A stretch of DNA of 64,000 bases, taken from positions 806,001 through 870,000 of the forward strand of contig SZXV01000002.1 of the NCBI GenBank assembly GCA_005862225.1. Direction: 5' to 3'. This stretch comes from Chlorobium sp. (lineage in GTDB: Bacteria; Bacteroidota; Chlorobiia; Chlorobiales; Chlorobiaceae). The translations under genes were made by a program, and so were the position numbers. Shown in pieces: positions 970-21,543 of the stretch (the stretch's first letter is position 1; each line of letters begins with the position of its first letter). The notes beneath the pieces were generated by a model. The model was not told the DNA's origin. It worked only from the letters and a program-made list of their open reading frames with translations, and made no database searches.

Positions 970-1008
970 GAGAAACAATAACGGTGTTTTATTTAAGCAG
1001 GAACTACT

Positions 1009-2415: not shown

Positions 2416-2525
2416 GCCTATCGTGGGAGGTCATTTACAGTTTTCAAACGAACAAGGCAGGGATGCATTCAGGAAGCTATAGATCTTATCCTTTTCTCAG
2501 AGGTTCCTGAATACGCACGGGAACT

Positions 2526-3212
2526 TCAGAACCTGTAGGTAATACCTGCCGAAATAACCGGGTAGTATTTGAACGCATCAATTTCGTTTTTAATATTTTT
2601 TTCCTCTTGTCGCAAATTTTCTTGAAATGCAGGATCTGTAGCAACTGATCCTGTTGCTGCCATCGCAACATCTGGTTTACCCTGGAACGCTATCCCAAGA
2701 TCGAAAGAAAAGGATAGATGAGATTCTGCAGTAAATGGATTACCCCACCCAATCCCCACGTAAGGCGCGAACGTCCCGAATTTTACTTCACCGTTCAGCG
2801 TTCCCACCTGATCAGCCATATACACAACTCCTCCAATGTCATAACTGTCAGCCGGTTCAGCATTAGCATTATATTTATTATTGTTTATGATTACGCCCGA
2901 AGAAAACCGGAATCCAGAGCCGTCATCAAGTAGAAACCAGTCCAAAAGGACCGGAAGAGAGCGCAGGTTCAGGTTGTATGCAATCGGGAGCCCGCTTTTG
3001 TGTGTTGAAGCACCGTAACTGAATACATATACACCAGTCCTGAGGTTAAGGTCTGACGTGAGGCCAAGGGTTCCTTCAACTCCTGCGCCAAGGGTGCTCG
3101 CTTTTAATCCGCCAGCTATGTCTGCAGCGTTTGCGCTGGCTGGTGTAATAACGGCGGTACAGGCAAGCAATGAACATAACGTCGCAGTCCACTTGAAGAT
3201 GTTGAGAGGCAT
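2526..3212 (-). CDS. Small outer-membrane beta-barrel protein
   Basis: I place the start at 3212 (MPLNIFKW), giving 228 residues. A longer in-frame opening to 3545 would add about 111 low-complexity residues before an obvious signal peptide. The signal peptide spans about residues 1-30 (hydrophobic core CSLLACTAVIT, then SANA/AD). The mature part has alternating strands (GVEGTLGLTSDLNLRTGVYVF, APYVGIGWGNPF, SFDLGIAFQG) and ends in AGITYRF, a C-terminal Phe typical of proteins inserted by BAM. It looks like a pore-less 8-strand barrel of the OmpA/OmpW size class. It is convergent with the Wzi gene, 110 bases apart. The substrate or role is unknown. Confidence 0.65.
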   Translation of the reverse strand: MPLNIFKWTATLCSLLACTAVITPASANAADIAGGLKASTLGAGVEGTLGLTSDLNLRTGVYVFSYGASTHKSGLPIAYNLNLRSLPVLLDWFLLDDGSGFRFSSGVIINNNKYNANAEPADSYDIGGVVYMADQVGTLNGEVKFGTFAPYVGIGWGNPFTAESHLSFSFDLGIAFQGKPDVAMAATGSVATDPAFQENLRQEEKNIKNEIDAFKYYPVISAGITYRF

Positions 3213-3404
3213 AAGCGTTTTTTTTGAGTTATTAAAAAAATCAGTGTGAAAATGTACAAGATATTTCTTGTTCAAACAGTTTTTTTCTGTGATGTTACCT
3301 TTCTCTTTTGTGGCGGATTTCGAAATTTCATTGTTGCAGAAGCCGTCAAACAGATCGACTTTTCCGGGATTGCTAACGTAGCGCAAAAGCATGAACGAAC
3401 AATA

Positions 3405-3974
3405 ATGAAAAAAAACAATAACACGGATATGAGAAATATCAAGAATCGGGTGAATCTCTTTTTCATGACTCTTTTTTTCTGCCTTGTGTTGATTGATGCC
3501 GCTCAAGCAAAAGATGGTATTGAGACGGCAGGCGAAATATTGCACCTTGCTTTACCTGCCTCGGCTGCAGGGCTTACGTTGGTGTTTAAGGATCGGGAGG
3601 GTTTCGTGCAATTATCGGAGGCGGGTACGCTGACGCTTGGAGTCACGTATGGGATGAAATACGCTATTGATGTACGGCGTCCGAATGGTGGTGATCATTC
3701 GTTCCCGTCAGCGCATACATCAACCTCTTTCGCGACTGCTGAGTTTATTCGTGGACGGTACGGGTGGAGTTACGGGATACCTGCGTATGTTGTGGCTTCA
3801 TTTGTGGGGTACAGCCGGGTTAAGTCAAAACAGCATCATACGTGTGACGTGATTGCCGGAGCTGTTATTGGTATGGGCAGCGGTTATCTCTTTACAACAC
3901 CCTATAATGGCTGGCAAATTCAGCCGCTGGTTGGCAGTTCGTTTTATGGTATCGGTTTGAGTTGTGGATTTTGA
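3405..3974 (+). CDS. PAP2-family membrane phosphatase
   Basis: Start chosen at the ATG at 3405 (MKKNNNTD), giving 189 residues. The frame is open further upstream but reads as non-signal sequence. A signal or anchor segment lies at about residues 18-32. The three phosphatase motifs are present in order: KYAIDVRRP (about residue 85), PSAHT (about 101) and SRVKSKQHHTCD (about 137-148). These correspond to KX6RP, PSGH and SRX5HX3D. The family removes phosphate from undecaprenyl-PP, phosphatidate or related lipids at the membrane. Next to polysaccharide genes, lipid-carrier recycling is plausible but not shown. Confidence 0.8.
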   Translation: MKKNNNTDMRNIKNRVNLFFMTLFFCLVLIDAAQAKDGIETAGEILHLALPASAAGLTLVFKDREGFVQLSEAGTLTLGVTYGMKYAIDVRRPNGGDHSFPSAHTSTSFATAEFIRGRYGWSYGIPAYVVASFVGYSRVKSKQHHTCDVIAGAVIGMGSGYLFTTPYNGWQIQPLVGSSFYGIGLSCGF

Positions 3975-3999
3975 CTTTTTTATGAGAGGCTGTTGACTG

Positions 4000-4023
4000 T
4001 TATCATTATTTTGCAAATGATAA
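4000..4023. promoter_or_regulatory. Inverted repeat upstream of cysC
   Basis: Perfect 8-base arms TTATCATT (4000-4007) and AATGATAA (4016-4023) with an 8-base spacer. They are followed by a partly overlapping TGATAATCA. The AT-rich ATGATAATCA core resembles half-sites of a Fur-type box. The site lies about 130 bases upstream of the cysC start, in the only non-coding gap before that gene. Regulator identity is inference. Confidence 0.3.
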
Positions 4024-4151
4024 TCACTTTTTATTTGTGATGCCTACAGGCGCAAGCGTTCGAAAGGGGCTTTGGAGCTGGTTTCTCCGATGAGTAACGA
4101 TATTGTGGGGGCTGTAACTATTTTGGAAAACATCGATATACTGACTGTTCA

Positions 4152-4745
4152 ATGACTGAAAAACGTGAGGTCGTCTGGCATCAGGGGGAGGTGAGTTCTG
4201 CTGAGCGTCAAGCGTTGCCTGGATTTCGCCATCAACCCTTTGTCTTCTGGTTTACTGGTCTGTCAGGAGCAGGAAAGTCAACTATTGCCTTTGCACTGGA
4301 ACGACAGTTAATCAGTATGGGAATCGCCTGCTGTGTTCTTGACGGAGATAATATTCGGCATGGTTTGAACCGTGATCTTGGCTTTTCACCCCTTGACCGA
4401 AAAGAGAATATCCGTCGTGTGGCTGAAGTTGCCCGACTGATGATGCATGCCGGCCTGATAGTTATAACCTCTTTTATCTCGCCATTTCGGGATGATCGTT
4501 CCATGGCTCGTTCAATCATTGGAACAGAGCATTTTAGGGAGGTCTATCTGAATGCCTCTCTTGATGTCTGTGAAAGACGTGATATAAAAGGGCTTTACCG
4601 AAAAGCCCGATCGGGGGAGATTCCCGGTTTTACCGGTATCTCTTCCCCTTATGAACTCCCGGAAAATCCAGACATCACTATCGACACAAGTTTTCTCACT
4701 ATCGATTCCTGTGTCAAATCATTGCTTTCAAACGTAAGGTTATAA
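4152..4745 (+). CDS. cysC: Adenylylsulfate (APS) kinase
   Basis: 197 residues, the usual length for a stand-alone CysC. It phosphorylates adenylyl sulfate at the 3' position using ATP, making PAPS. The P-loop is GLSGAGKST (residues 36-44). The APS-binding segment DGDNIRHGLNRDLGF follows at about 63-77, and ERRDIKGLYRKARSGEIPGFTGI matches the family's lid and product site. No CysD/CysN lies beside it. PAPS can serve assimilation or act as sulfate donor for sulfotransferases, and two sulfotransferase genes lie at 8.0-9.6 kb. That functional link is inference. Confidence 0.93.
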   Translation: MTEKREVVWHQGEVSSAERQALPGFRHQPFVFWFTGLSGAGKSTIAFALERQLISMGIACCVLDGDNIRHGLNRDLGFSPLDRKENIRRVAEVARLMMHAGLIVITSFISPFRDDRSMARSIIGTEHFREVYLNASLDVCERRDIKGLYRKARSGEIPGFTGISSPYELPENPDITIDTSFLTIDSCVKSLLSNVRL

Positions 4746-5016
4746 GTTTGAGATTTTCGTGTCTGATGGCTAATTATTTTTCACCGTACCGAAAGGAATT
4801 GATGAGCTTGCCGCTACCGGTATTACCCTTCCTTTGATTATTGCAAAGAACATCAATGTCAGTCGCAAGAAAAAAGCTGACAAAAAGCGAATACAAATCT
4901 TTTAGTTGAATCGTAAACAACCACAAACATCAGCTCTTGCTGAGTTTCTTTGCAGAGGGATCCACTGTTCGAGCTTGGGAAGTAGAGAAAATGGGTCGAC
5001 CTCCCAAGCTCAACGA
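4746..5016. other. Decayed region with a serine-recombinase remnant
   Basis: No intact gene. At 4906-5020 two plus-strand frames together read TSALAEF, then TVRAWEVEKMGRPPKLNDQ. This matches the end of the catalytic domain of resolvase/invertase serine recombinases (LAEFER..RERT..G....A...GRPPKL) broken by a frameshift. A perfect 10-base inverted repeat (4971-4980 and 5002-5011, GAGCTTGGGA) sits in it. Upstream, an open stretch ends at 4905 with KKKADKKRIQIF; I do not recognise it. The remnant abuts the 3' end of precursor peptide A on the other strand. Confidence 0.5.
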
Positions 5017-5175
5017 TCAAATAAGACTACCAAGCGCCTCAACATCATCAGCCGTCACAATTTCCATAATAGCAGGGTCTTCTGTCCATTCACGCTTCTG
5101 TTGAATTTTTTCAATGTTTTCAGCATGTTGCTGGGAAGGATCAATGGCATTTGTCATATATCTTTTCGATATCAT
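5017..5175 (-). CDS. RiPP precursor peptide A (leader conserved, core doubtful)
   Basis: 52 residues, read directly from the minus strand. It starts MISKRYMTNAID and contains SQQHAENIEKIQQKREWTEDP. The shared leader signature with precursor B (9635-9820) is M-x-SK...I..SQQHAE....QKREW..DP. A strong ribosome-binding site, AAGGAG, lies 7 bases before the ATG. The start overlaps, out of frame, the 3' end of an HPr-kinase-like remnant. The C-terminus (IVTADDVEALGSLI) has no Gly/Ala/Cys/Ser start with an acid 7-9 residues on, so a lasso ring is not obvious. The core may have been lost at the junction with the recombinase remnant. No known peptide is matched. Confidence 0.55.
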   Translation of the reverse strand: MISKRYMTNAIDPSQQHAENIEKIQQKREWTEDPAIMEIVTADDVEALGSLI

Positions 5176-5344
5176 CTTTAACTCCTTTGGTTTTTAATTC
5201 ACATTGAAATATTACGGAATAATTTGTGGTTTTCCCAAATGATGATGCAACAGAGGACCGATTGGCACACCGCATCCCAAGACCGAATGGGACTGTATAC
5301 GAGAATATGTAATAGCTTTCACCATATCTTCTTATGAAAATCAA
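5141..5344 (-). pseudogene. HPr-kinase-like 3' remnant 1
   Basis: A 67-codon minus-strand frame ends FGKTTNY...GVKDDIEKIYDKCH. It aligns with the C-terminus of the intact kinase at 10053-11027 (FGKIANF...AVTDDIENIYAEIH), and the preceding RCANRSSVASS corresponds to RTNRFHVAAQ. The Walker A part is absent, so it cannot be a kinase. Its last 11 codons overlap the start of precursor A in another frame, the same geometry as at the intact kinase gene. It is best explained as the surviving tail of a duplicated kinase gene. The cyclase gene diverges from this point. Confidence 0.6.
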
Positions 5345-7058
5345 CAGTCAAGTGAAATGGGATTATGTTTCACTTTTCTCATGCATCCAAAGTCCAGAAG
5401 AAATCCCGGTCGTTTGGGGTGCCAGGGATGATGCAACCGTCCGCACGCTCATAGATTTTCTGCTGATGCAGCCACAAAGGAGGAACCCTCCTGATTTTAA
5501 ATGGGCAGCAGCAACTCAACGTTCTGATGCTGCAGTTGTTGCTACGGCTTCGACTATGCTTGGCAGTGGTTTGTATTGGTCAATAGATCATGATACAGCC
5601 AGTCGACCGTACCTGCTGATAGGAGTGAGCCCCGGCGATGTTGTCTTGCGGCGAAAAGGGTTGACTACGCTTAATCACAGTTATATCAGGGAGTATCTGT
5701 CTGGAGAGCGAAGCGATCGAAAGACCCCATACAATGAGGTACACAGGATACCGGCAGGTGTTTTTGCCGTCTGGAGTTCGATCGATACTCCTCCTGAGGA
5801 GACCGAATGGAGCGGTCCGGATGTTTGGGCCGAACCGTATCTGGAAGGCCGAGATGCCAGGGAGTCATACCTCAACATATTTGATGCAACCATTGCCAGG
5901 CTCATCGATGGCAATGCACCCCTTGCGTCAATGTTATCTGGCGGACTGGATTCATCTTTCGTTGTTGCGACCCTGGCACGTATGACCACACCTGATCGCC
6001 CTGTTCATGCCTTTGTACATGCACCTCACCCTGATGCACGCCTCAGCGCTATTGGTAATTGTGACCCTGATGACAGTGCATTCGCAAAAAAAATGGAGAC
6101 AGCACATCCTGGTAGTGTAGTGGTGACAAAAGTCATAAACACCGATTTAGTGCAACCACAGGATGCTGCATTAAGGGCTGCACGGCGTTCCTGGTTACCG
6201 TCCTTCAATCCTGGGAATCAGATATGGATAGATGCCATTGCTGAACAGGCTGCCGCCATTGGTGCACCAATGCTTTTTTCGGGGCAAAAAGGAAACGCTG
6301 CGTTCAGCCATGAGCATAGCTATGCAGCTTCCTATTACTTGCAACACGGTCGTCTTGATCAACTGGCAAAGATGGTATTCTCCAGAGCGGATTCCAATAT
6401 TTCTGTTTATCAGTCCGCAAGAAAAAGAGTACTGGGACCACTGATCCGTCCATGGAGATCACAAAAAAACAATCCGAATGCTGAGTATAAAAAACTGATT
6501 GGGGCTCCTGATTCAGCCAAAGTCAACGGCAGCTCGCAATCACAGGGTCGTCGGTACTTCCTGGAGTGGCTTTCACAGTCATACAGCGCACTTTTGGCAG
6601 CAGATTGTCCGGCTGGTTGGATTGTGCCGGTTGCTGATCCTTTTACTGCGAGTGCGGTTTTAGCGCTGGCGGCCTCGATCACTCCTTACCAGTGGTTGCA
6701 AGGGCCATATCCGCGTGGGTATGCACGTTCATTAGGTGAAGGTCGGGTTCCTGACGAGATCAGGCTTCGCACACGTCGTGGTGGTCAGGCCTGGGACACC
6801 TGGTTTGTGATTCGTAATCAGCGGGAGCGATACCTTGATGAGTTGGAGCTTGTTCATCGAAGCCCGGGCCTTGGAGGGTGGGTCGACACGTCAGAAATGA
6901 AAAAAAGAGCGGAGCAGTGGCCTTGGGGGGAAATCCATGGGCCGAGTCAAATTGAAGTCATTGCTCTCGACAGGTTGTTATCGCTGGCTGCGTTTGCGCG
7001 CATGACAGAGGAGAGATTGAAAACGATTTGTATAACAGAACGTTCAACTTCGGGTTAA
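5334..7058 (+). CDS. Asparagine-synthetase-like lasso peptide cyclase (protein C)
   Basis: 574 residues. The C-terminal synthetase domain has the PP-loop SGGLDSS at about residue 202, which binds ATP. In lasso biosynthesis this activates the side chain of an Asp/Glu in the core so that the N-terminal amine can close a macrolactam. The N-terminal half resembles the class II glutaminase fold (HRIPAGVFAVW) but lacks the Cys2 nucleophile: the protein starts MKINSQ. That loss is normal for lasso cyclases and argues against a true asparagine synthetase. Its stop overlaps the next gene (TAATG). The RRE and protease partners are 4-7 kb away on the other strand, so the cluster is rearranged. Confidence 0.8.
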   Translation: MKINSQVKWDYVSLFSCIQSPEEIPVVWGARDDATVRTLIDFLLMQPQRRNPPDFKWAAATQRSDAAVVATASTMLGSGLYWSIDHDTASRPYLLIGVSPGDVVLRRKGLTTLNHSYIREYLSGERSDRKTPYNEVHRIPAGVFAVWSSIDTPPEETEWSGPDVWAEPYLEGRDARESYLNIFDATIARLIDGNAPLASMLSGGLDSSFVVATLARMTTPDRPVHAFVHAPHPDARLSAIGNCDPDDSAFAKKMETAHPGSVVVTKVINTDLVQPQDAALRAARRSWLPSFNPGNQIWIDAIAEQAAAIGAPMLFSGQKGNAAFSHEHSYAASYYLQHGRLDQLAKMVFSRADSNISVYQSARKRVLGPLIRPWRSQKNNPNAEYKKLIGAPDSAKVNGSSQSQGRRYFLEWLSQSYSALLAADCPAGWIVPVADPFTASAVLALAASITPYQWLQGPYPRGYARSLGEGRVPDEIRLRTRRGGQAWDTWFVIRNQRERYLDELELVHRSPGLGGWVDTSEMKKRAEQWPWGEIHGPSQIEVIALDRLLSLAAFARMTEERLKTICITERSTSG

Positions 7059-7981
7059 TGTGTATGCCGTTATTCCACCAATCTGATCCGATACCAGTGC
7101 CGGTTATGAGTGCATGTCCCAATCAGGAATTATTACAATTTCTTCGTTCTGACATGGAGGAATTTCTCAGACAGTATGAGGGGTTGGATGTCTTTTACTA
7201 TCACCAACTCGGCAATGCAGGGGACTCATTAATAGCCGCTGCAACGTATCAGGCTTTTTCTCGTTGTAACGTCAGGATTCAACATATTAGTCATATTACT
7301 CCTGTTGTTGATGGTTCTGTTGTATTTCTCGGGGGTGGTGGCAATTTTGTGCCACTTTACTACGATATCAGGATTGCTTTCAAAAAGTTACTCGGCCGGG
7401 CGGAGAAAATCATTCTTTTGCCCCATACTATCCGCCAAAATGAAGCTATACTGCGTAGGCTTGACGAAAGATGTATTTTGTTTTGCCGGGATGTAGAGAG
7501 TTTTGAACATGTACGGAAAGTAAATCCATTTCTTGATGTCAGGCTTGCTCATGACATGGCGTTTCATCTCGATGTTGATGAACTGCTGAACGATCAGAAA
7601 CTTATGAGAGCGGGCCGAGCTGTGTTGAACAATAAACTTCATGAGGCAGGGCTTTCAAAGGAAATAATTCAATCCTGGCCAAACATTAATATGTTGCGTA
7701 TGGATCGAGAGTCAATACAAAGCCATCCATTTACAGACGTGGATATTTCGACTCTCCTCGCTATCGGGGTTGACCCTCTGAATGCACCCATTGCTGCATG
7801 GTGTTTTCTCACGGGCATTAGCATTGCTCATTTCGTCTATACAGACCGACTGCATGTGGGTATCGCGGCAGCCTTACTGGGCAAAGAGTGTATCCTGAGC
7901 GATAATTCGTACGGCAAGAACCGTGCAGTTTATCGACACAGTCTCACAGGTTTTCCGACTTTGCTCTTCAAGGCCGAGTAG
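7058..7981 (+). CDS. Polysaccharide pyruvyl transferase family protein
   Basis: Start chosen at the ATG at 7058, whose first base is the last base of the cyclase stop (TAATG). This gives 307 residues and suggests translational coupling. Visible features are HQLGNAGDSLIAAATYQAF, a GGGGNF loop after VVFLGG, and a C-terminal YTDRLHVGIAAALLGK segment. All are typical of PF04230 enzymes, which transfer pyruvate from PEP onto sugar hydroxyls as a ketal. Coupling to a RiPP cyclase is unusual. It could decorate a sugar placed by the GT17-like enzyme of the same locus, or simply be a leftover surface-polysaccharide gene. Confidence 0.75.
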   Translation: MCMPLFHQSDPIPVPVMSACPNQELLQFLRSDMEEFLRQYEGLDVFYYHQLGNAGDSLIAAATYQAFSRCNVRIQHISHITPVVDGSVVFLGGGGNFVPLYYDIRIAFKKLLGRAEKIILLPHTIRQNEAILRRLDERCILFCRDVESFEHVRKVNPFLDVRLAHDMAFHLDVDELLNDQKLMRAGRAVLNNKLHEAGLSKEIIQSWPNINMLRMDRESIQSHPFTDVDISTLLAIGVDPLNAPIAAWCFLTGISIAHFVYTDRLHVGIAAALLGKECILSDNSYGKNRAVYRHSLTGFPTLLFKAE

Positions 7982-8022
7982 AAATCACCGATTTTTTTCA
8001 GGTGGCTCATGCTCCAATGCGC

Positions 8023-8778
8023 TCAGAGGATATCAGCAATTGCAGTGTAATCGCATTTGTACCGGCATCGAAGTATATCAGTGACCTCTGGAGAAAGAAA
8101 GTCGTTGGCAGCAGGGAGGCGGCCGGTCAACTGGAAATTGTTGCGCAAATCACCAATGGTCATGTTATCCGCACCAGGGAAGGTGTTGTCAGGGCAAGCG
8201 TATGGTTGTGTGCCATGAGGACGAACCACAACAACGTCACACCCAACCAGGTCGGCAAGCTGACGTTGCCAATCAGAAATCTCCATGCTCAGTAAATGAT
8301 CGTGCTTGCGGCCAGCTAAAAACCAGGACTGTGACCTTAAATGGATCTCAAGATGTAGATCAGGTATGAGGGCTACAGCTCTGGAAAAATCGAGGAATGT
8401 CAGTTTTTCGATTTCAAGTTCACCCAAGGGCGACCCGTTAACCAATTCGGGCAGGGATAATCGAACAGAAGGGTGCCTGACTACAGAAAGCCATTCTTTC
8501 TGTAGAGGATGAGCCACTATTTTATCGAGGAAAGCAGATACAAATCTTCTGGCCGGATCGCGAATAACGACAAAAGAACGTCCTTGCTGGGTTTCATTGC
8601 ATAAATAAGCTTCGGCGAGTACAAGATGAACCTCATCAACATCCATCGGATTAACGCCAACCCCCTCCCGAAAAAGTAGGGTGGCCTTAACAGTCGAACA
8701 GGCATTCTTGGGAATAATCGTGTACCGGATGTTTGAGCCTGGAAAGTAAAGCAAGTTTTTCGGTTTTGGAATGTCCAT
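8023..8778 (-). CDS. Sulfotransferase family 2-type protein (copy 1)
   Basis: 251 residues. The 5'-phosphosulfate loop reads IIPKNACSTVKATLL (about residues 22-36), and the 3'-phosphate motif reads VIRDPARRFVSAFLDK (about 71-86). This is the PF03567/Sulfotransfer_2 pattern of Golgi-type carbohydrate sulfotransferases, which move sulfate from PAPS to a hydroxyl or amine. It is a close paralogue of the neighbouring copy at 8862-9635, with long identical blocks such as EIEKLTFLDFSRAVALIPD. The ATG at 8778 directly follows a fragment of an HPr-kinase-like gene. The acceptor may be the RiPP or a glycan; sequence does not decide. Confidence 0.8.
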   Translation of the reverse strand: MDIPKPKNLLYFPGSNIRYTIIPKNACSTVKATLLFREGVGVNPMDVDEVHLVLAEAYLCNETQQGRSFVVIRDPARRFVSAFLDKIVAHPLQKEWLSVVRHPSVRLSLPELVNGSPLGELEIEKLTFLDFSRAVALIPDLHLEIHLRSQSWFLAGRKHDHLLSMEISDWQRQLADLVGCDVVVVRPHGTQPYACPDNTFPGADNMTIGDLRNNFQLTGRLPAANDFLSPEVTDILRCRYKCDYTAIADIL

Positions 8779-8861
8779 TATTTTTTCGATGTCAGTAGGT
8801 TTGGTTGGGCATTCATTGTTCCGGGAAAGATGGAATAACGCAACGACAGGCTACTCCGGGT
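8779..8861 (-). pseudogene. HPr-kinase-like internal remnant 2
   Basis: The gap between the two sulfotransferase genes is not random. Read on the minus strand, it first matches the interior of the intact kinase gene (10290-10350; the shared stretch includes TTCCATCTTTCCCG) and then jumps to the kinase 3' end (CTGACATCGAAAA). The middle is deleted. The fragment leads straight into the ATG of sulfotransferase copy 1. It records an earlier kinase-precursor-sulfotransferase unit that collapsed. Confidence 0.55.
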
Positions 8862-9635
8862 TCAGCATATATCAGCAATTGCAACGTAATCACATTTATA
8901 CCGGGAGCGAAGGATATCAACAGCTTCTGGAGAAAGAAAGTCTTTGGCAGCAGGCAGGCGACCAGTCAACTGGAAATTGTTGCGCAATTCACCAATGGTC
9001 ATGGTATCAGCACCAGGGAAAGCGTTGTCAGGGCAAGCGTATTGTTGTGTGCCGTGAGGGCGAACCACAACAACCTCACACCCAACAAGTTCGCCAAGCT
9101 GACGTTGCCAGCCAGGGGAGTCAAAGCTGAGCATATAGTCGTGCTTACGACCAGCCAGATACCAAGACTGAGACCTGAAATGTTCATCGAGATGAACATC
9201 AGGTATAAGGGCTACAGCTCTGGAAAAATCGAGAAATGTCAGCTTTTCAATCTCAAGCCCATCCATCGACGAACTGTTAACCAATTTTGGCAGAGATAGC
9301 CGGGTTGAGGAGTGCATAACGACAGATATCCATACTGCCGGTCGGGGATTAGCCACTATTTTATCGAGAAAAGCGGATAAAAACCTTCTGATCGGATCAC
9401 GAACAACAGCAAGAGATCGTCCTTGCTTTGTTTCATTGCAGGCATAAGGTCGGACTAACTCACGATGAATCTCGTGAATATTCATCGGATTAACTCTAAC
9501 CCCCTCCCGAAAAAGCAGGGTGGCCTTAACCGTCGAATTGGCATTCTTGGGAACAGCCGTGTATCGGATGTTCGAGCCCGGAAAATAAAGCAAATTCTTC
9601 GGCTTCGCAATATTCGCAATATTCGCAATACGCAC
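8862..9635 (-). CDS. Sulfotransferase family 2-type protein (copy 2)
   Basis: 257 residues with a GTG start at 9635 that overlaps the TAG of precursor B by one base (TAGTG), so precursor and sulfotransferase are probably translationally coupled. The motifs match copy 1: VPKNANSTVKATLL for the PAPS 5' loop and VVRDPIRRFLSAFLDK for the 3' site. The first residues, MRIANIANIAKPK, come from a short 9-base tandem repeat absent from copy 1. Direct coupling to a RiPP precursor is the best evidence in the locus that the sulfate acceptor could be the peptide or something attached to it. Confidence 0.8.
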   Translation of the reverse strand: MRIANIANIAKPKNLLYFPGSNIRYTAVPKNANSTVKATLLFREGVRVNPMNIHEIHRELVRPYACNETKQGRSLAVVRDPIRRFLSAFLDKIVANPRPAVWISVVMHSSTRLSLPKLVNSSSMDGLEIEKLTFLDFSRAVALIPDVHLDEHFRSQSWYLAGRKHDYMLSFDSPGWQRQLGELVGCEVVVVRPHGTQQYACPDNAFPGADTMTIGELRNNFQLTGRLPAAKDFLSPEAVDILRSRYKCDYVAIADIC

Positions 9636-9820
9636 TAAACAACACTACCACAACCAGGCCCATCACCCGCAGGAGCACAGCCGTTACGCACAGCAGTAGC
9701 ATTCATAACTTCCGCCATTTCAGGATCAGCCCACTCACGCTTCTGGCTGCACTTTACATCTTTTTCAGCGTGTTGCTGAGAACTCTCAATGACACTTGTC
9801 ACATTTTTTTTCGATAACAT
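9635..9820 (-). CDS. RiPP precursor peptide B (lasso-like, two-Cys core)
   Basis: 61 residues. The leader MLSKKNVTSVIESSQQHAE...QKREWADPEMAEV is shared with precursor A. WADPEM fits the YxxP-x-hydrophobic signature that lasso leaders use to bind the RRE protein. The C-terminal part, AVRNGCAPAGDGPGCGSVV, is Gly/Pro/Cys-rich and unlike the leader. Thr42 could be the usual Thr(-2), giving a core at Val44 with Asp at position 10. If the core starts at Gly47, Asp53 is position 7. Neither choice is canonical. Ser59 near the end is a possible target of the kinase. A good AGGGGG site precedes the ATG, and the stop overlaps the sulfotransferase start. Confidence 0.7.
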   Translation of the reverse strand: MLSKKNVTSVIESSQQHAEKDVKCSQKREWADPEMAEVMNATAVRNGCAPAGDGPGCGSVV

Positions 9821-9940
9821 TTCTACCCCCTTTGGTTTGTGCCGTTTTCGAATTCAACTGTAGTTTTAGTGAACAATGTCGAGCTTTCCAAATCTGTGCT
9901 GCAACAAGTTTGATTTCTCACCGTTTTTATGGTAAAGCAA
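9821..9940 (-). pseudogene. HPr-kinase-like 3' remnant 3
   Basis: Minus-strand sequence immediately upstream of precursor B aligns with the kinase 3' end: GTTGCAGCACAGATTTGGAAA against GTTGCAGCTCAATTTGGAAA, then a diverged stretch. The end overlaps the precursor start, where the kinase frame would read VIEKKCDKCH and stop, parallel to DIEKIYDKCH in remnant 1. Upstream motifs are lost. It is the third copy of the kinase tail in front of a precursor gene. Confidence 0.55.
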
Positions 9941-9997
9941 CAGTTGATCGTTGACTGTTGATTGTCTCGATCCCTTTCCAGTCTTTTACTTGTTTTC

Positions 9998-10087
9998 TTA
10001 CTTCTGAACTTGTGTCAATGCACTGCCTAAAAACATTGGGCTGAAAGGACTCTCAATGGATTTCGGCATATATGTTTTCGATGTCAT
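9998..10087 (-). pseudogene. Decayed precursor peptide C
   Basis: A 29-codon frame starts inside the 3' end of the intact kinase gene (ATG at 10087) and reads MTSKTYMPKSIES, matching the first residues of precursors A and B. It ends in VQK and a stop where A and B continue QKREW. The leader start is conserved partly because the overlapping kinase frame constrains it. With no RRE motif and no core, this looks like an eroded precursor. Confidence 0.4.
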
Positions 10088-11027
10088 CAGTTACCGCCTC
10101 TGGAGTTTGACTCTGATCGTATCTTAACAAAAAATTGGCGATTTTTCCAAATTGAGCTGCAACGTGGAACCGATTGGTACGCCATTGGAAAGATTCTCGA
10201 TCAAGACCGATCGCGGTAGTTGCGGCCTGCGTCACCGCATTTACGGTGTCAAGCCGGGAAATGTAAGAGTTGGAAGAATGATTGGTTGAGTGTTCGTTGT
10301 TTCGGGAAAGATGGAACAAGGCCACGACAGGTCTCCATTCTGGTAAACACAACGCAGACTGTTCCACTTGCACCATAACTTTTCCATCAGCATAGCCCGA
10401 CAACAATGGGCCTGACAATTGCATTCGATTGGCAGCGTCAGCCCTCAGACGCGTCATTCCTCCCATCGGGATAACTTTTAGTTCTCCACCGGTAATTGAT
10501 GCCACGCAAGCGTCATCATCAAGGAGTATCCATCCGTGGCGACGAGCCAAGAGCTGGCCAAGCGTCGACTTCCCGATGCCACTCATCCCGGCAAGCAGTA
10601 CGTAGCCTTCAGGGGTTTTGAGTAATGCTGCGTGAAGCGGAACATCTCCCCACATCGAAGGCAGGCGGGATAAGAGGCCTGTCACAAGGGAGTTGACGAC
10701 ATCCCGGCAAGGCAGTGCCATCGTTTCATGGACAGCTAATTGGTTTACATCGGGATGCACTGTTAATCGGGTTCCACACTTTGGTACCCATACTACAAAA
10801 CCCGTGCGCGGCAAAACCGCCCAAACCCCTTCTGCTGCACGCAGAACGAAAATACCCCAATTCTCACGACCGGCACATAAGGGACCCTCAGGTAAAACCG
10901 GGTCAGATGACCATTCGAGCAGAACATCCCGATGGCCGGGCTCAATGTCATGGGTAACCCGATGGAGCAGTTTCAGCTCATGCGAACTGAAGATATGGCG
11001 GTCGAACAATCTATAGCAGTACAACAT
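10053..11027 (-). CDS. HPr-kinase-like protein of the RiPP locus
   Basis: 324 residues. The Walker A loop is GMSGIGKST at about residue 155. It is followed by WILLDDDACVASI, as in the C-terminal domain of HPr kinase/phosphorylase. The N-terminal half has no recognisable HPrK domain. Proteins of this type occur in lasso clusters, where members studied phosphorylate a C-terminal Ser of the precursor (paeninodin type, from memory). It lies 10 bases after the PqqD-like gene. Its 3' end occurs again three times in the locus as remnants next to precursor or sulfotransferase genes. Confidence 0.75.
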   Translation of the reverse strand: MLYCYRLFDRHIFSSHELKLLHRVTHDIEPGHRDVLLEWSSDPVLPEGPLCAGRENWGIFVLRAAEGVWAVLPRTGFVVWVPKCGTRLTVHPDVNQLAVHETMALPCRDVVNSLVTGLLSRLPSMWGDVPLHAALLKTPEGYVLLAGMSGIGKSTLGQLLARRHGWILLDDDACVASITGGELKVIPMGGMTRLRADAANRMQLSGPLLSGYADGKVMVQVEQSALCLPEWRPVVALFHLSRNNEHSTNHSSNSYISRLDTVNAVTQAATTAIGLDRESFQWRTNRFHVAAQFGKIANFLLRYDQSQTPEAVTDDIENIYAEIH

Positions 11028-11037
11028 TTTTATCCGT

Positions 11038-11301
11038 TTATGCCTTCACCAGAAACCCTTTTTCAAGAGCCTGCTTTAAAAAAGTTGCAACCGCAGTCTG
11101 ACAACGCTCAGGTTCTACATCGTACTCACCAACAAGTATTGCTATAATTCGTTCTTCAGACAATACACCGTCTGACAAAAGATCCCAAATCCTCTTTGCG
11201 ACGTCGTTAAATTCAAAATAAGCCAGCGATTCAACGTTCATAAGAATAAGGGAACCGTTAACTTCGGCATGCAATGCATCAGGACTTCGTTGATAGCTCA
11301 T
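11038..11301 (-). CDS. PqqD-family RiPP recognition element (lasso B1)
   Basis: 87 residues, the standard size of a stand-alone PqqD-like chaperone. The pattern LILMNVESLAYFEFNDVAKRIWDLLSDG, followed by a helical EYDVEPERCQTAVATFLKQALEKGFL, is characteristic of the winged-helix RRE that binds the leader peptide and presents it to the processing enzymes. Its ATG overlaps the stop of the GT17-like gene by one base. Together with the transglutaminase-like protein at 13756-14244 it forms the split B1/B2 protease of lasso pathways. Confidence 0.85.
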   Translation of the reverse strand: MSYQRSPDALHAEVNGSLILMNVESLAYFEFNDVAKRIWDLLSDGVLSEERIIAILVGEYDVEPERCQTAVATFLKQALEKGFLVKA

Positions 11302-12230
11302 CAGTGTTCCTCTGGATTGATTGATGAAAGTTTCAAATGAGAAGAGTTATGGAACCGTTCAAGTGCTTCTTGCATAAGGTGGTGACGCTCATTAAGCGAA
11401 GGGAGGTCGCCAAGCACAGTATCAGGATGACGTCGCGCAAGAAATTCAAGTTGACTCGGAACAGCGATTTGAGTAGCTCCCCACCAGCCATAAGGATGAA
11501 TTCCGGCAGCAAGGCAATGAATCATATAGTGACAATCTGCACCCAAATCCCAGTCGTGGGCTTGCCGTTGAAGTTTTCGTGATGGATCCTTTTCAGGTGA
11601 AAGCAGATGAAGCAAGTGCCAGCCTGCAACCTCGTCTGTTTTGGCAACGGGATGCGAGCGCCAGTATTGTACGCCAAGATTGGCAAGATCACGAATTGGT
11701 GCAATCACTCCACCGGGAAAGAGCCAGCCTGTTTCATGAGGTGGCCAATCGCCAACAGGCGTTGTAAGGTGTTTCAGGCAACAGTGCCAGTCAGGTGCAC
11801 GTCGGTCGAGGCCTCCATAACAAGGCAGCATAAACATGCGAGTAGGAACACTCACCGAATCGGCATGTGAGTCCAGCCAGTCAGGATCAACAAATTCGTC
11901 GGCATCGACGGCTATCAAGAGATCATCTGGTTGCATATCCCGTACACCCAAACCGATAGCATTGCGTTGCAGCATTTCCCGTTGGCGCATTGATGCACTA
12001 GGCGCGTTATCGTCCGGTAGATCAGTGACGACAGATCTGAACTGCTCTGGTTTCAGGGCAAGAAGATCTAACCAGCCCTCACCAAAAATTTCACGAGGTT
12101 TACCCTGAAATGTACGTCGCCCCTCAACAATAAGAACGCGATCAAGCTGGGGAAGCAACAACTCTATCATACCTCGAATGAGATCCACTTCTCCATCGGC
12201 AGTGATGGCAAGCGCGATTTTTCTTCTCAT
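11301..12230 (-). CDS. Glycosyltransferase, GT17-like
   Basis: 309 residues. The N-terminus reads LALAITADGEVDLIRGMIELLLPQLDRVLIVEGRRTFQGKPRE, and DDLLIAVDADEFVDPDWL follows in the middle. The VEx..TF.GKP motif and the DxDE motif resemble GT17 family transferases and related DUF proteins. No signal peptide or membrane segment is seen. It is coupled to the PqqD-like gene (TGATG) and so belongs to the RiPP operon. A role in glycosylating the peptide is possible, and the pyruvyl transferase at 7 kb would need such a sugar. The family call is moderate, and a different GT2 subfamily is the main alternative. Confidence 0.55.
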   Translation of the reverse strand: MRRKIALAITADGEVDLIRGMIELLLPQLDRVLIVEGRRTFQGKPREIFGEGWLDLLALKPEQFRSVVTDLPDDNAPSASMRQREMLQRNAIGLGVRDMQPDDLLIAVDADEFVDPDWLDSHADSVSVPTRMFMLPCYGGLDRRAPDWHCCLKHLTTPVGDWPPHETGWLFPGGVIAPIRDLANLGVQYWRSHPVAKTDEVAGWHLLHLLSPEKDPSRKLQRQAHDWDLGADCHYMIHCLAAGIHPYGWWGATQIAVPSQLEFLARRHPDTVLGDLPSLNERHHLMQEALERFHNSSHLKLSSINPEEH

Positions 12231-12275
12231 AACAACTTATACTCAAATAAGGATATTGTGATATCAAATTTTTTT

Positions 12276-13574
12276 TTATTGTCTACTGCACTTACCCGTT
12301 ACTGGTGGGTAAGCAGCATCTCCTTCCATCCAACTGTCTATGACCAGTATTCGCTCTTTTTCTGCCAAGACATCAGCGTTTTTAAGTGTAATAAAGAATA
12401 TTTTCGGTAGATGATGTCTGACCATTAAACCAATTCGTTTGAAGTAAAGCCAGCGGAAGCCTGGTGAGTTAACTGAAGTCATGAACTTGGTCGCTATTTC
12501 TTCCGATGCAGGGAAGATGCGCTTGTAAAACAGTGCGGTGCGCTTCAGGAGTGATCGCTCTTCTGCCAATCTGATAATGTTAATATGAAGCTTATTTGTC
12601 TTCGGCTGATCAAGAAATAGAGCATCCATAGCAATAGAATGGATAAATTGATCGTCGCTGCAGGAAGGGCAGAGTTCGTCTAAAACCGATTGAGGTACTT
12701 GCGAGCCGAGGTGTTTTCGGGTGAGGTCCAGCATCAGCCAAACGCCACGTTCCCAAGCCAGCTCCCGGGATCTTATAACCAGATCGTTCCAATCGATCTG
12801 GCGGGTCGGTTGAGCAATCAGGCTGGCAATATCAAGCAGCGCCCTCGGGCCAATGTAATTAAAGCGATGGTGAACGGCTGCATGAAAACAGAGATAGAGC
12901 AGGTGGTCTTCCACGCACAGGGTTCGGCAAGGCTTGCCCGCAATGGTGTAGATTTCTGAGCGTTGCCAAAACTTTTCTTCATCAACCGGTTTTTCGAAAG
13001 GCGAGAACGTCAGCGCCCAGTGGATGTCAAAAAAGGACTTCCGTGTTGGATGAACCAGTGGAAATTCATTTTTTGCTGGAGCAAGATCGCAAATATTGGC
13101 TGTATTCTTCGGTAAATCAAAGCCGTGCTCCAGGACAAGTTTCGTAAAACGAGGCATGTCCTCTAATCGCAGTAAAAGATCTATGTCACCGGTCGCACGG
13201 GCCTTCAAGTCACGGTATACCGCTTCACCCAACCACAGCCCTTTGAGCAGCATGACAGGAATATTTGCCTCTTTGAGGAGAGCAAGCATATCTCGCAAAT
13301 GTGCCTGCTTGCGGAGGTTATTCATCAGCGTCTTTCGAACTGTTTCGCCAAGCTGATCCAGGCAGACTTGTGGCACTGTGACGCGAAATTGAGATTTGGA
13401 ATCAAAAAACGCTTTTACCTGAAAGGCCATACGGTAACGAATTGTATCTGATGTAAATGCATGCCAATCATCAGAAGATAATGCAAATAACCGTGCAGGA
13501 TCGGGCAGTGACGGATCATTGTGAAGAATCTCCAGAAGGAGATTGCTGAATCTTGTGTTCACAGGAGTTGTCAA
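12276..13574 (-). CDS. Nucleotidyltransferase family protein (PF14907-type)
   Basis: 432 residues. The signature LLKGLWLGEAVYRDLKARATGDIDLLL (about residues 105-131) contains the GDIDLL metal-binding Asp pair of the Pol-beta-like fold. A helical region follows with HWALTFSPFEKP and LLYLCFHAAVHHRFN. This family is repeatedly found in lasso clusters beside HPr-kinase-like genes. Its chemistry is established in few cases, and sugar or nucleotide transfer to a phosphorylated C-terminus has been reported. It lies 45 bases upstream of the GT17-like gene, in the same orientation. Confidence 0.75.
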   Translation of the reverse strand: MTTPVNTRFSNLLLEILHNDPSLPDPARLFALSSDDWHAFTSDTIRYRMAFQVKAFFDSKSQFRVTVPQVCLDQLGETVRKTLMNNLRKQAHLRDMLALLKEANIPVMLLKGLWLGEAVYRDLKARATGDIDLLLRLEDMPRFTKLVLEHGFDLPKNTANICDLAPAKNEFPLVHPTRKSFFDIHWALTFSPFEKPVDEEKFWQRSEIYTIAGKPCRTLCVEDHLLYLCFHAAVHHRFNYIGPRALLDIASLIAQPTRQIDWNDLVIRSRELAWERGVWLMLDLTRKHLGSQVPQSVLDELCPSCSDDQFIHSIAMDALFLDQPKTNKLHINIIRLAEERSLLKRTALFYKRIFPASEEIATKFMTSVNSPGFRWLYFKRIGLMVRHHLPKIFFITLKNADVLAEKERILVIDSWMEGDAAYPPVTGKCSRQ

Positions 13575-13755
13575 AGGATATTCTTTAATCTCTAAAGGCT
13601 TAATTCTCGATCGCTTGCGGCGAAAACAAGCAAACTTTTTTTGAAAAAGAGACCCAACTGCATGCGGTGAAAAGTTTCATTATTCTTTTGTAATGCAAAG
13701 AATACCGTATTTCCAAGTATGCTAAAAAATATGTTGACGCAAATTAAGTACGTAA

Positions 13756-14244
13756 TCATTTGTTATTGAGGAGAATCTCATTGGCCGATAATCCACATGG
13801 AATCTCAAATACATTGGTTGGGGTGAATTCATGTGCATTTTCACCTCCAGTTACTGCTCCAAATTCTCCAAGTAACCAGGCATGAGCCTCCCAATTCTTG
13901 CCTGTCGATACAGGGTTCCGTCGCAATCCAATAACAACAACGCCACTGCGTCCACGGTGCCGGAGCATGATTTGCCCTGCTGAAGCCTGAGCAAGGCAGG
14001 TTGGTTTAAAAGGCAGGCGCTGGCAGGCCCTTCTTATTGCAATCGCAACTGCACGTTCCTTGATGTTGCTCCCTCTTTGCATGGTAATAGCCTTTTCTAC
14101 TCCTTGCCAGTGCTTTGGTATGTGGGCGTTGCGCCCCAAAACTCCAGACCACCATGACATTGGAATATAGCGCTGTGCAACGCCAAACACGACAAGGAAC
14201 CATAAAGCTTCTCCGGCACTTATGTAGTCACGCCAGTTATGCAT
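13756..14244 (-). CDS. Lasso leader peptidase (B2), transglutaminase-like
   Basis: 162 residues. The catalytic Cys is in FKPTCLAQA (Cys83) and the His in WEAHAWLLG (His121). The spacing and the PTCLxQA...RH...AHAWL pattern are those of PF13471, the cysteine protease that removes the leader from a lasso precursor before ring closure. Length is normal. It would be the first gene of the leftward operon, and 181 bases separate it from the nucleotidyltransferase gene. That gap shows nothing recognisable apart from A/T-rich sequence. Confidence 0.85.
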   Translation of the reverse strand: MHNWRDYISAGEALWFLVVFGVAQRYIPMSWWSGVLGRNAHIPKHWQGVEKAITMQRGSNIKERAVAIAIRRACQRLPFKPTCLAQASAGQIMLRHRGRSGVVVIGLRRNPVSTGKNWEAHAWLLGEFGAVTGGENAHEFTPTNVFEIPCGLSANEILLNNK

Positions 14245-14371
14245 AAAATTGGATATCCAAACCCTTAATAATAAAGTTATGCCTCTTGCCCCTGCCCCAT
14301 GCTTCGATTTTGCGCCTTGCAGTGTTCAGATGATGAAATCAGTTCACCGACACGCACTCATACCAATTTGG

Positions 14372-14572
14372 TCATGACATTATTGCCGAGTAGGCAGCTC
14401 CTGAAGCAAGAGATGTTATCAAGAGCGGAACAGAAGCCAGGGTGACCAGATGTCCGCCCCAGAAGGCGCCAGCCCAAAGCGTCGTCAGTACCGTAAGCAG
14501 GAACAGCCCCAGATGAAGAGGATAGTTCTGCCTGGCAGAAATGGCTTGTTTGGGAAAATTCAAAAGATTCAT
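14372..14572 (-). pseudogene. N-terminal remnant of an M50-type membrane protease
   Basis: A 66-codon frame starts MNLLNFPKQAISARQNYPLHLGLFLLTVLTTLWAGAFWGG, the typical first transmembrane segment of site-2 protease family proteins in this phylum. The HExxH metal site and everything after it are missing. The frame stops after SGAAYSAIMS, and no continuation was seen on this strand between 14245 and 14371. The rest of the 14245-14652 gap holds no gene I can support. Confidence 0.45.
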
Positions 14573-14652
14573 GAAAAAATATTACTCAAACTTCTGCCAG
14601 GCAGTTCTCTAAAGTGTACCCGCTCCTGCGGTCATGGCGTCAATTTACTGGG

Positions 14653-15141
14653 CTAATCGTTGTCCTTGTCTTTTTTTGAAGCGCTCTTTTTTTCTCCAAA
14701 AGTCGCCACCAGCCCATCGATCAACTCCTGTTTCTCCGCCGCATTCAGCTTGGCCTCTTTATGGGCAGGAAGGTATATAAACGGAGGCATTTTGCCTTTC
14801 CTTACCTCACCGGCAGCTTTCTCGCCTTCATTTTCCTCTTGACGTCCCCACTCGGAAACATTGAAAGTGTCCCGTCCCAAAGAGACATCAATCTGCGTCA
14901 GCCAAGATACAGGAGCCACAAAACTATACCATGGCCAGACAGTGTTATTCGAGTGACAATCCTTGCAGGCCCGGTTAAAAAGTTCTTGTGTGCGCGGAGA
15001 ATTCCATTGTGGTTCACCGGTGACAGGAGGGTTATTATGGTTTCTTCCATAAGGGATAACCTGAATGGCCACAAAAGCAAGTGCGCCCCCGATTAAAAAT
15101 TTTACAAGTTTCATTGAGCAGATGTCTTTTTTGTGAGTCAT
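14653..15141 (-). CDS. Haem-binding domain protein (c-type, CxxCH)
   Basis: Up to 162 residues; a start at 15114 (MKLVKFL) would give 153 and put the membrane anchor ([19 protein letters not shown]) at the extreme N-terminus. The haem motif is CKDCH (Cys59, Cys62, His63 in the longer form), followed by [17 protein letters not shown], which is diagnostic of the haem_bd domain (PF14376). A Met-containing [18 protein letters not shown] segment could give the second ligand. The tail is Lys/Asp-rich. It is probably periplasmic and membrane-anchored. A sensor or electron-transfer role cannot be chosen from sequence. Confidence 0.8.
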
Positions 15142-15211
15142 GAAAATTATAAGAATTCAGTAATATATAGTCAAATTCTCTCTATCTCCGAAAAGTTGAA
15201 AGCACCAATAC

Positions 15212-15724
15212 TCATGAACCCTGCAGAGTATTTTGCCGAGAGGCATCACTGATGATCTGGAGATGCAGTGGAATTCGGACTTCAGGAAGAAGGTGAGAAG
15301 CGTAAAAGCCTGCGTCAAACAGTTCATGGTTGATGGTAATGGTATCATCCTCCACAACGACCCTGTAGGCCAGAACCAGCAGTGAACCATACATTTCGAC
15401 CTCCCTGTGGTAAACGCCGATCAGTTGATCAATAGTGCCGTCAAGCGATGTCTCCTCCATAAGTTCCCGCAGACAGCCCTCATGCGGCTCTTCACCAGCC
15501 TCCAGAAAACCGCCAGGAAGCGCCCATTCATTAAAAGCCGGTTCATGCGCTCTTCGAATTACAAGAAGTTCGTTGTTTTTATTGACCGTATAGGCAACGG
15601 CAACCGGCAGAGGATTGATGTAATGCACCCATGAACATGACGGACAGAACATCCTGTCTCGACCATCGATCATAGCCGTGTCCAGTTTTGTCGTGCAAAG
15701 AGGACAAAATAAATAGTGTTTCAT
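15212..15724 (-). CDS. Nudix hydrolase with N-terminal zinc ribbon
   Basis: 170 residues. Two CxxC pairs, CPLC (7-10) and CPSC (28-31), form a zinc ribbon. The Nudix box GGFLEAGEEPHEGCLRELMEETSL follows at about 71-94 with all conserved Gly/Glu/Arg residues. This arrangement resembles NudC-like and related ADP-ribose or NADH pyrophosphatases, but it is shorter than NudC and lacks its SQPWPFPxS motif. The substrate is therefore open. It is divergent from the peroxiredoxin gene, with 87 bases between them. Confidence 0.85.
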   Translation of the reverse strand: MKHYLFCPLCTTKLDTAMIDGRDRMFCPSCSWVHYINPLPVAVAYTVNKNNELLVIRRAHEPAFNEWALPGGFLEAGEEPHEGCLRELMEETSLDGTIDQLIGVYHREVEMYGSLLVLAYRVVVEDDTITINHELFDAGFYASHLLPEVRIPLHLQIISDASRQNTLQGS

Positions 15725-15811
15725 CGGCGCCAGAAACTTTTTGCGATAGCTATTGATTTACTGAGAAGGGAACAGCACAGAACAATTTTAACAAGAGAAT
15801 AAGTTTCATTC

Positions 15812-16288
15812 ATGTCAATTGCAATTTTACAAGAGGGGGTTCCAGCTCCCGCAATTTCAGCCAAAGACCAGGAAGGGAAGCCTGTAACACTCGAAGAGTA
15901 TCGTGGGAAAAAGGTTGTGCTCTATTTTTATCCGAAAGATGATACTCCCGGATGCACTACGGAAGCTTGTGCTTTTCGTGATAATTTCCCTAAATTTAAC
16001 ACAGTGGGGGTTGAGGTTCTTGGTGTCAGTGTTGATGATGAAAAAAAGCATAAGAAGTTTGCAGAGAAGTATAATCTGCCCTTCAGACTGATTTCCGACG
16101 CCGACAAAAGCATTGTTGAAGCTTATGGCGTCTGGGGGCAAAAGAAATTTATGGGTCGGGAGTATATGGGAACAAGTCGGGTGACCTATCTTATTGATGA
16201 GCAGGGCGTGATTGAAAAAGTATGGCCAAAAGTCAGCCCTGACAAACATGCGGAAGAGTTGCTTGACTATTTGCAGCAAAAAACCTGA
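15812..16288 (+). CDS. bcp: Thioredoxin-dependent peroxiredoxin (Bcp/PrxQ)
   Basis: 158 residues, full length. The peroxidatic site is YPKDDTPGCTTEACAFRD, with the peroxidatic Cys in PGCTTE and the resolving Cys five residues on in EAC, as in PrxQ. It reduces H2O2 and alkyl hydroperoxides in the cytoplasm using thioredoxin. The start at 15812 is supported by the conserved N-terminus EGVPAPAISAKDQEGKPV. The YqgE gene follows after 9 bases, so co-transcription is likely. Confidence 0.93.
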   Translation: MSIAILQEGVPAPAISAKDQEGKPVTLEEYRGKKVVLYFYPKDDTPGCTTEACAFRDNFPKFNTVGVEVLGVSVDDEKKHKKFAEKYNLPFRLISDADKSIVEAYGVWGQKKFMGREYMGTSRVTYLIDEQGVIEKVWPKVSPDKHAEELLDYLQQKT

Positions 16289-16297
16289 GAGAAAAGA

Positions 16298-16861: not shown

Positions 16862-16929
16862 TCGTGTTTTGAGGGTAAGAGTGGCACTTGGATGCGTCTC
16901 TCATGAGGTGAAACATCAATTAAGAAAAG

Positions 16930-16955
16930 GTCCCGCAGGGGCCAAATATTGGTAG
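16930..16955 (+). repeat. Dispersed 26-base element, copy 1
   Basis: A GTCCCG-AGGGGC-TTGGTAG motif that recurs at 35040-35065 with 4 mismatches. Both copies lie in intergenic DNA. The rest of the 16862-17046 gap shows no gene. Confidence 0.4.
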
Positions 16956-17046
16956 AACAGGACGTAAAGGTGGCTTGACCAATGAATCTTGTTGCTCAAG
17001 TTGCGCAATAAATGATCTGAGTTTTCCGGATATAGGGGAATAATTG

Positions 17047-17075
17047 TTGATCTATTTCCTGAAAAAGTATATATA
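17047..17075 (+). promoter_or_regulatory. Probable tmRNA promoter
   Basis: TTGATC (17047-17052) and TATATA (17070-17075) are separated by 17 bases and lie about 23 bases upstream of the mature tmRNA 5' end. That fits a sigma-70 promoter with a short leader removed by RNase P. Confidence 0.4.
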
Positions 17076-17097
17076 GAAAATCGTTCTTTGATACTCT

Positions 17098-20064: not shown

Positions 20065-20076
20065 TAAAAAAGTACT

Positions 20077-21540: not shown

Positions 21541-21543
21541 AGG

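Follow-up and report, generated by a model that had tools for sequence, protein, structure and literature searches.

A candidate lasso-type peptide locus in Chlorobium with coupled precursor and sulfotransferase genes

Introduction

The closest described systems are kinase-type lasso peptide clusters. In pseudomycoidin, a kinase and a nucleotidyltransferase (NT) give a phosphoserine that carries hexoses (PMC9266682, PMC8498205). Sulfotransferase (ST) genes have been noted in lasso clusters since 2014, both in Firmicutes (PMC8498205) and in anaerobes (PMC4289311), and in Pontixanthobacter ST gene families are numbered beside the lasso B2 and PqqD families (PMC10040529); in the literature searched, these genes have neither a product nor a mechanism. 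Here, we describe a candidate lasso-type locus for a ribosomally synthesized and post-translationally modified peptide (RiPP) at positions 5017–14244 of a 64 000-nucleotide stretch (the window) of the 2.5 Mb genome of Chlorobium sp. (GCA_005862225.1, contig SZXV01000002.1, positions 806 001–870 000). Its lasso genes stand together with ST genes and a gene for a polysaccharide pyruvyl transferase-like protein (PPT). A preliminary description had recognized the genes for the cyclase C (5334), B1 (11038) and B2 (13756), and every gene that it named is a full-length open reading frame (ORF) at the position given; the matches of B1 and B2, and that of C to the general Asn_synthase profile, exceed their cut-offs. 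It had also noted both the ST and the PPT as not known to it from characterized lasso pathways. For ST genes this was overstated, since lasso clusters that contain them have already been recorded from Firmicutes, Proteobacteria and plasmids. Neither a sulfated lasso peptide nor a pyruvyl transferase in a lasso cluster was found in the literature searched, with most subscription papers outside its reach. The new features are the coupling of precursor and ST genes, the Sulfotransfer_2 type of the ST and the pyruvyl transferase; ST genes in lasso clusters were already known, uncharacterized.

Comparison with known loci

First, pseudomycoidin and paeninodin share the B1, B2, C, HPr-kinase-like and NT genes with the Chlorobium locus, and a tail Ser is the likely target (PMC9266682, PMC8498205). 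The Chlorobium Ser is not last but has two or three further residues after it, and the locus adds GT17-like, ST and PPT genes, has a very diverged C and lacks an exporter. The residues after the core Ser are VV, AA, GA or IGC in Chlorobium, while Ser is last in the Tistrella precursors; since the core Ser is not C-terminal, the locus is compared with the pseudomycoidin type and not filed under it.

Second, a region of the Tistrella mobilis plasmid pTM1 (NC_017957.2, 603537–624340) likewise encodes a GT17-like protein, an HPr kinase and two sulfotransferases. Two small ORFs between its GT17 and sulfotransferase genes have a W-x-x-P-x-L leader and a DGIGCVS or DGNCGS core, and the pattern DG-x-GC-x-S or DGNC-x-S is shared with Chlorobium. 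The region differs in its Sulfotransfer_1 and NTP_transf_6 families, Thr at −2 and C-terminal Ser, and neither C nor B2 was found in 603537–624340. More kinase-containing lasso loci occur on pTM3 (L083) and pTM1 (L096) of T. mobilis, the one on pTM1 with a sigma factor, FecR and a TonB receptor downstream.

Third, B2, PqqD, NT, kinase-like, C and sulfotransferase genes stand together on a plasmid of Thalassobaculum sp. OXR-137 (NZ_CP139716.1, 45.7–59 kb). This cluster differs in having Sulfotransfer_1, an ABC transporter and a C of canonical length, and no GT17-like or pyruvyl transferase gene was seen in it. Finally, the bsf cluster of Bradymonas sediminis resembles the Chlorobium locus in being a kinase-containing lasso cluster with a residue other than Thr at −2 and a kinase that targets a Ser other than the last; it differs in that the phosphorylated Ser3 lies in the ring, and the paper mentions no sulfotransferase (PMC10368454).

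Coupling of the precursor and sulfotransferase genes

For comparison, we used 86 genomes of the family and a sample of 394 genomes of the phylum. The two genomes with close relatives of C are metagenome-assembled genomes (MAGs), G037 (JABDHK010000052, Chlorobiaceae) and G034 (SZXZ01000140, Chlorobium sp. L227-2013-56). In the window and in both of these genomes, the stop codon of the precursor gene lies −4 to +3 nt from the start of the ST gene. In G037, G034, a further genome (G065) and the left-hand (third) module of the window, the start of the precursor gene overlaps the final 35 nt of the kinase gene, while 232 nt separate the kinase gene and the precursor gene A1 in the intact module of the window. 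The window holds three kinase–precursor–ST modules, one intact and two damaged: a 57-nt kinase relic lies between ST1 and ST2, and a kinase relic, the precursor-like A2 and an ST relic lie to the left of C (Table 1). G034 has a second precursor gene followed by a disabled ST gene. The end of the kinase gene, the precursor gene and the ST gene have been duplicated together, repeatedly, in the window and in G034. Because of these tight junctions and the duplication of the whole unit, the ST is tied to the precursor beyond mere proximity. A 67-residue ORF at 5141–5344 was rejected as a separate gene, as it is the kinase-gene relic that overlaps A2. The preliminary description had missed the real precursor A1, the APS (adenosine 5′-phosphosulfate) kinase, the coupling of A1 to ST1 and the module duplications.

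The family-wide distribution of the ST also follows the cyclase. PF03567 occurs in four of the 86 genomes: the three with this cyclase, which have every copy within the locus, and G005, with one copy in another setting. PF00685 and PF13469, the two families searched besides PF03567, gave no match in the window genome, with positive controls matching, and a tblastn search of plasmids with ST1 gave none. It had been considered beforehand that the ST and PPT genes might turn up in unrelated neighbourhoods with the lasso genes standing alone; this outcome did not appear, and Sulfotransfer_2 tracks the lasso cyclase in the family. The two STs score 43 and 50 bits against PF03567 (cut-off 22), and candidate loops for binding 3′-phosphoadenosine 5′-phosphosulfate (PAPS) were located by inspection (PKNANSTVK, RDPIRRFLSAF).

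Table 1. Features of the locus and of the adjoining cysC gene in the window.
Feature	Position	Strand	Evidence
CysC, APS kinase, predicted PAPS source for the STs	4152..4745	+	PF01583 227 bits, cut-off 21
Relic of a third ST gene, ~25 codons	4883..4957	-	71 nt 66-72% identical to ST1/ST2; tblastn 60% over 25 aa, 6e-7
A2, vestigial or diverged precursor, 52 aa	5017..5175	-	Leader homologous to A1, E 4e-7; alignment
Relic of kinase gene 3′ end, overlaps A2 as in intact loci	5144..5263	-	tblastn, kinase residues 285-324, 3e-7
C, diverged lasso-type macrolactam synthetase (predicted)	5334..7058	+	PF00733 4e-17, 63 bits, cut-off 21
PPT, polysaccharide pyruvyl transferase-like, overlaps C end	7028..7981	+	PF04230 (PS_pyruv_trans) 3e-18, 67 bits, cut-off 25
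ST2, Sulfotransfer_2	8023..8778	-	PF03567 8e-11; 76% identical to ST1
Kinase-gene relic between ST1 and ST2	8794..8850	-	57 nt, 81% identical to 10275-10331; kinase residues 233-248, 3e-7
ST1, Sulfotransfer_2	8862..9635	-	PF03567 4e-13; GTG start overlaps A1 stop (TAGTG)
A1, precursor peptide, 61 aa, leader W-x-x-P-x-M, core ending ..NGCAPAGDGPGCGSVV	9635..9820	-	Orthologues; motif common with Tistrella precursors
Kinase, HPr-kinase-like P-loop protein	10053..11027	-	HprK_rel_A 1.9e-6, Hpr_kinase_C 0.003, both below cut-off
B1, PqqD-like RiPP recognition element	11038..11301	-	PF05402 2.5e-16, 60 bits, cut-off 23; NF033536 3e-13
GT17-like glycosyltransferase	11301..12230	-	PF04724 4.7e-4, 19.8 bits, below cut-off 26
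NT (NTP_transf_5)	12276..13574	-	PF14907 3.5e-44, 152 bits, cut-off 31
B2, lasso leader peptidase, transglutaminase-like	13756..14244	-	NF033537 4e-15, 56 bits, cut-off 33; PF13471 3e-14

Regarding the other tailoring genes, the earlier assignments of NT, PPT and the two STs stand above their cut-offs, while the GT17 and HPr-kinase profile matches fall below theirs. The HPr-kinase profile gives the kinase 17.5 bits (cut-off 33), so that this label is weak by itself; the protein is homologous (1.5e-7) to one encoded on Tistrella pTM1 that is annotated as an HPr kinase. The GT17 label, also weak by itself, is supported because the homologous Tistrella protein passes the GT17 cut-off with 60 bits.

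Conservation of the locus

The cyclases of G037 and G034 are 81 and 79% identical to C. No close relative was found among the other genomes of the phylum sample, and a scan of contigs for the cyclase, limited to narrow patterns, recovered the same two alone. The preliminary description had proposed to look for the gene set in other Chlorobiaceae, and these two genomes carry the locus. The order in G037 is B2, NT, GT17, B1, kinase, precursor and ST, followed on the opposite strand by PPT (84% identical) and C. In G034 it is GT17, B1, kinase, precursor, ST relic, precursor and ST, after which C lies on the other strand; the contig ends inside GT17. C is inverted in all three genomes carrying this cyclase, and the order that had been described as rearranged is therefore the normal one; a broken locus was rejected as the cause of the inversion for the same reason. 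PPT is an accessory part of the locus.

Partial loci occur in further genomes. G061 retains B2, NT, GT17, B1 and the kinase up to the contig end, and the G058 contig has only B2, close to its end. In G065, the series B2, NT, GT17, B1, kinase and precursor has no ST after it; what comes next is an antisense remnant of the first part of C, 28 residues long. ST, PPT and most of C thus seem to have been lost. This contig (L073, G065:C116) carries two back-to-back lasso-type clusters at 7087–17448, a separate kinase-type one standing directly before the locus. The C gene of this first cluster is followed by a PS_pyruv_trans gene whose protein has no similarity to the window PPT detectable by phmmer; the genus thus has two distinct clusters in which a lasso cyclase gene adjoins one of the PPT family.

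The locus genes are kept under purifying selection, with pairwise dN/dS of 0.10–0.35 for C (0.15), PPT, ST, the kinase, B1, GT17, NT, B2 and CysC. Between the window and G037, dS is 0.30 for PPT and 0.51–0.70 for the other locus genes, and the lower value suggests a later exchange of PPT. The kinase gene of G037 is frameshifted into two (L013 5599–6563), by an assembly error or by real decay.

Leader and core of the precursor

A1 has orthologues in G037, G034 (two) and G065, while A2, which is flanked by the kinase and ST relics, is a paralogue without the core motif DG-x-GC-x-S. The five Chlorobium leaders share K-R-x-W-x-DP-x-M-x-EVM, A2 alone having one inserted residue, and all five carry W-x-x-P-x-M, a conservative variant of the lasso leader motif Y-x-x-P-x-L expected near −17 to −12. 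The four complete cores share DG-x-GC-x-S, and one G034 core has two additional residues before Cys. With a putative cleavage site, the candidate A1 core is NGCAPAGDGPGCGSVV or GCAPAGDGPGCGSVV. A core start 16 residues on from the Trp (Trp = 1) puts the Asp at core position 8 (A1, G037) or 9 (G034); the published −17 spacing puts it at 7 or 8, and a start that makes the leader Thr residue −2 puts it at 10–11. The positions predicted from the Tistrella Trp-to-core distance or from the −17 spacing correspond to lasso ring sizes. From any start after the leader Thr, the A1 core offers only one hydroxyl side chain, that of the Ser in GC-x-S, and contains no Tyr or Thr. Phosphate and sulfate therefore cannot both be attached directly to side-chain hydroxyls.

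Cyclase and sulfate supply

The SGGLDSS loop of C is intact, position 2 is not Cys and a glutaminase domain is not recognizable. In a tree of 14 sequences, the three Chlorobium cyclases form a group with the lasso cyclase of Tistrella (98/96 support), apart from the AsnB group (100/99), although on a long branch. The concern that C might group with primary asparagine synthetases was thus not borne out; the tree argues against an ordinary asparagine synthetase, and lasso activity is not proven by it. A search of PDB sequences gave no match for C and noise for ST. Taken together, the gene content and motifs support the prediction of a lasso-type pathway with ST and pyruvyl transferase.

CysC adjoins the locus and is the only full-length APS-kinase domain found in the window genome; the other clear match is a partial domain fused to CysN (G000:C12:89710–91278), and similar frames of ~600 residues, likewise with a partial domain, occur in G037, G060, G070 and G072. 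A cysC gene is present in 28 of the 86 genomes. In G037 it is divergent from B2 and abuts the cluster at its other end, and the dS of CysC is 1.5 versus 0.3–0.7 for the other locus genes. Membership of cysC in the lasso operon was rejected on these two grounds. The copies of the window and G037 were probably acquired separately, and we argue for a functional link only; CysC may serve other needs too.

Proposed product and alternative explanations

We consider it probable, by a modest measure, that this is a working lasso-type RiPP locus with a sulfated product made as follows. B1 would bind the W-x-x-P-x-M leader of A1, and the kinase would phosphorylate the Ser that is conserved in the DG-x-GC-x-S tail motif. 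NT and the GT17-like enzyme may then place a sugar on the Ser phosphate. ST1 and ST2 would transfer sulfate from PAPS, supplied via the neighbouring CysC, to the product, most likely onto the sugar, to which PPT would add a pyruvyl ketal. If the kinase uses the sole Ser of A1, the ST needs another acceptor, and the sugar from NT and GT17 would be the simplest for both ST and PPT. Finally, B2 would cut off the leader, and C would close a ring between the N-terminus thus exposed and the conserved Asp at one of core positions 7 to 9, so that a short tail remains; one Cys in the ring and one in the tail may be joined by a disulfide. What the sequences show is the gene set, its conservation and selection, the restriction of ST to this locus, and the coupling and joint duplication of the precursor and ST genes; all catalytic steps and the sequence in which they occur, the role of the sugar in accepting sulfate and the threading are what we infer here. 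The product is probably a highly modified peptide of a type that the literature searched does not report. Its fullest form is a tentative suggestion: a lasso peptide with a sugar linked through phosphate to its tail Ser, this sugar bearing both sulfate and pyruvate, and with the precursor–ST pair evolving as a unit, which would be the first sulfated and first pyruvylated lasso peptide.

Several observations weigh against this proposal. With W at −16, as for a Tistrella-like core start, Val or Ala and not Thr stands at −2; we do not take this as excluding a lasso peptide, since phosphorylated lasso precursors with Ile or Val at −2 have been described (PMC10368454). The lasso cyclase model NF033535 gives C 3.5e-7 and 29 bits versus a cut-off of 525, and the Chlorobium cyclases sit on a long branch in the 14-sequence tree (3.1 changes per column). 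The AlphaFold models of ST1 and C have pLDDT values of 33 and 31, with alignments of 4 and 3 sequences. PPT is absent from the G034 locus, being present in two of the three loci, and cysC was not seen in G034 (88% complete). In the window, CysC borders a polysaccharide region, with O-antigen ligase, WbsX and Wzi directly upstream. Lastly, the G034 and G037 cores have further hydroxyl residues, including Tyr beside or near Asp, and direct peptide sulfation is possible there.

The alternative that survives best extends this last point: a lasso-type peptide would be sulfated directly on Ser or Tyr, the kinase and glycosylating enzymes acting elsewhere or competing. Tyr lies within two residues of Asp in G037 and both G034 cores (YSD, YND, KYD), and it is the precursor gene, rather than that of the glycosyltransferase, with which the ST gene is coupled. 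The window A1 core, however, offers one Ser alone beside an intact ST under purifying selection, and Sulfotransfer_2 members characterized elsewhere act mostly on carbohydrates. We regard direct sulfation as unlikely.

Slightly less likely still, B1, B2 and C would make a cyclic unthreaded peptide or one of unusual ring size. This would fit the high divergence of the cyclase, its unrecognizable glutaminase domain and an Asp outside positions 7–9 when cleavage follows the leader Thr as −2, but the Tistrella Trp-to-cleavage distance, where Thr is at −2, places the Asp of each of the four complete Chlorobium cores at position 8 or 9, and Val at −2 is itself on record in phosphorylated lasso precursors (PMC10368454).

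We hold it improbable that the STs, CysC and PPT serve the synthesis of a cell-surface polysaccharide and stand beside the lasso genes by chance. The genes upstream of cysC in the window, a CysN–CysC fusion of G059 that sits in a polysaccharide locus and the mainly polysaccharide-acting families PF03567 and PF04230 favour such a role. Against it, each of the three genomes has the ST located between the precursor and the cyclase and coupled to the precursor, Sulfotransfer_2 is found outside this locus only once in the family, and the flanks differ, with cobalamin genes in G037 and a non-ribosomal peptide synthetase (NRPS) and ABC exporters in G034. Equally improbable is a decaying remnant without product, as two damaged modules of three, the G065 relic without ST and the lack of an exporter within the locus might suggest, since all main genes are intact with the low dN/dS given above.

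Export and neighbouring genes

The absence of an ABC exporter, noted previously for the whole window, holds for the locus genes; the remainder of the window was not examined for exporters. An exporter adjoining C in a related genome had no match in the window genome at E 1e-20. In G034 (L014, G034:C81), positions 1–9351 carry the NRPS and two tandem cyclic-peptide ABC exporters (TIGR01194 above cut-off) that run into C; these transporters could export the peptide or be part of the NRPS system. In G037 (L079, G037:C52), a SynChlorMet cassette at 5828–9170 (ScmC, ScmE and ScmF above cut-off) adjoins the lasso-type locus, and an additional NTP_transf_5-like gene (9763–11016) stands between the two. 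Elsewhere in the window, three neighbouring ORFs at 17689–23356 resemble, by eye only, the R, M and S genes of a type I restriction–modification system.

Conclusions

With the precursor–ST coupling in three genomes, an adjoining gene for PAPS supply and a single core hydroxyl, the locus makes a testable case for sulfate either on a lasso-type peptide or on a sugar borne by its phosphoserine. If this is true, pyruvyl transferase would enter lasso-peptide chemistry, and the kinase-type lasso loci would be extended to the green sulfur bacteria.

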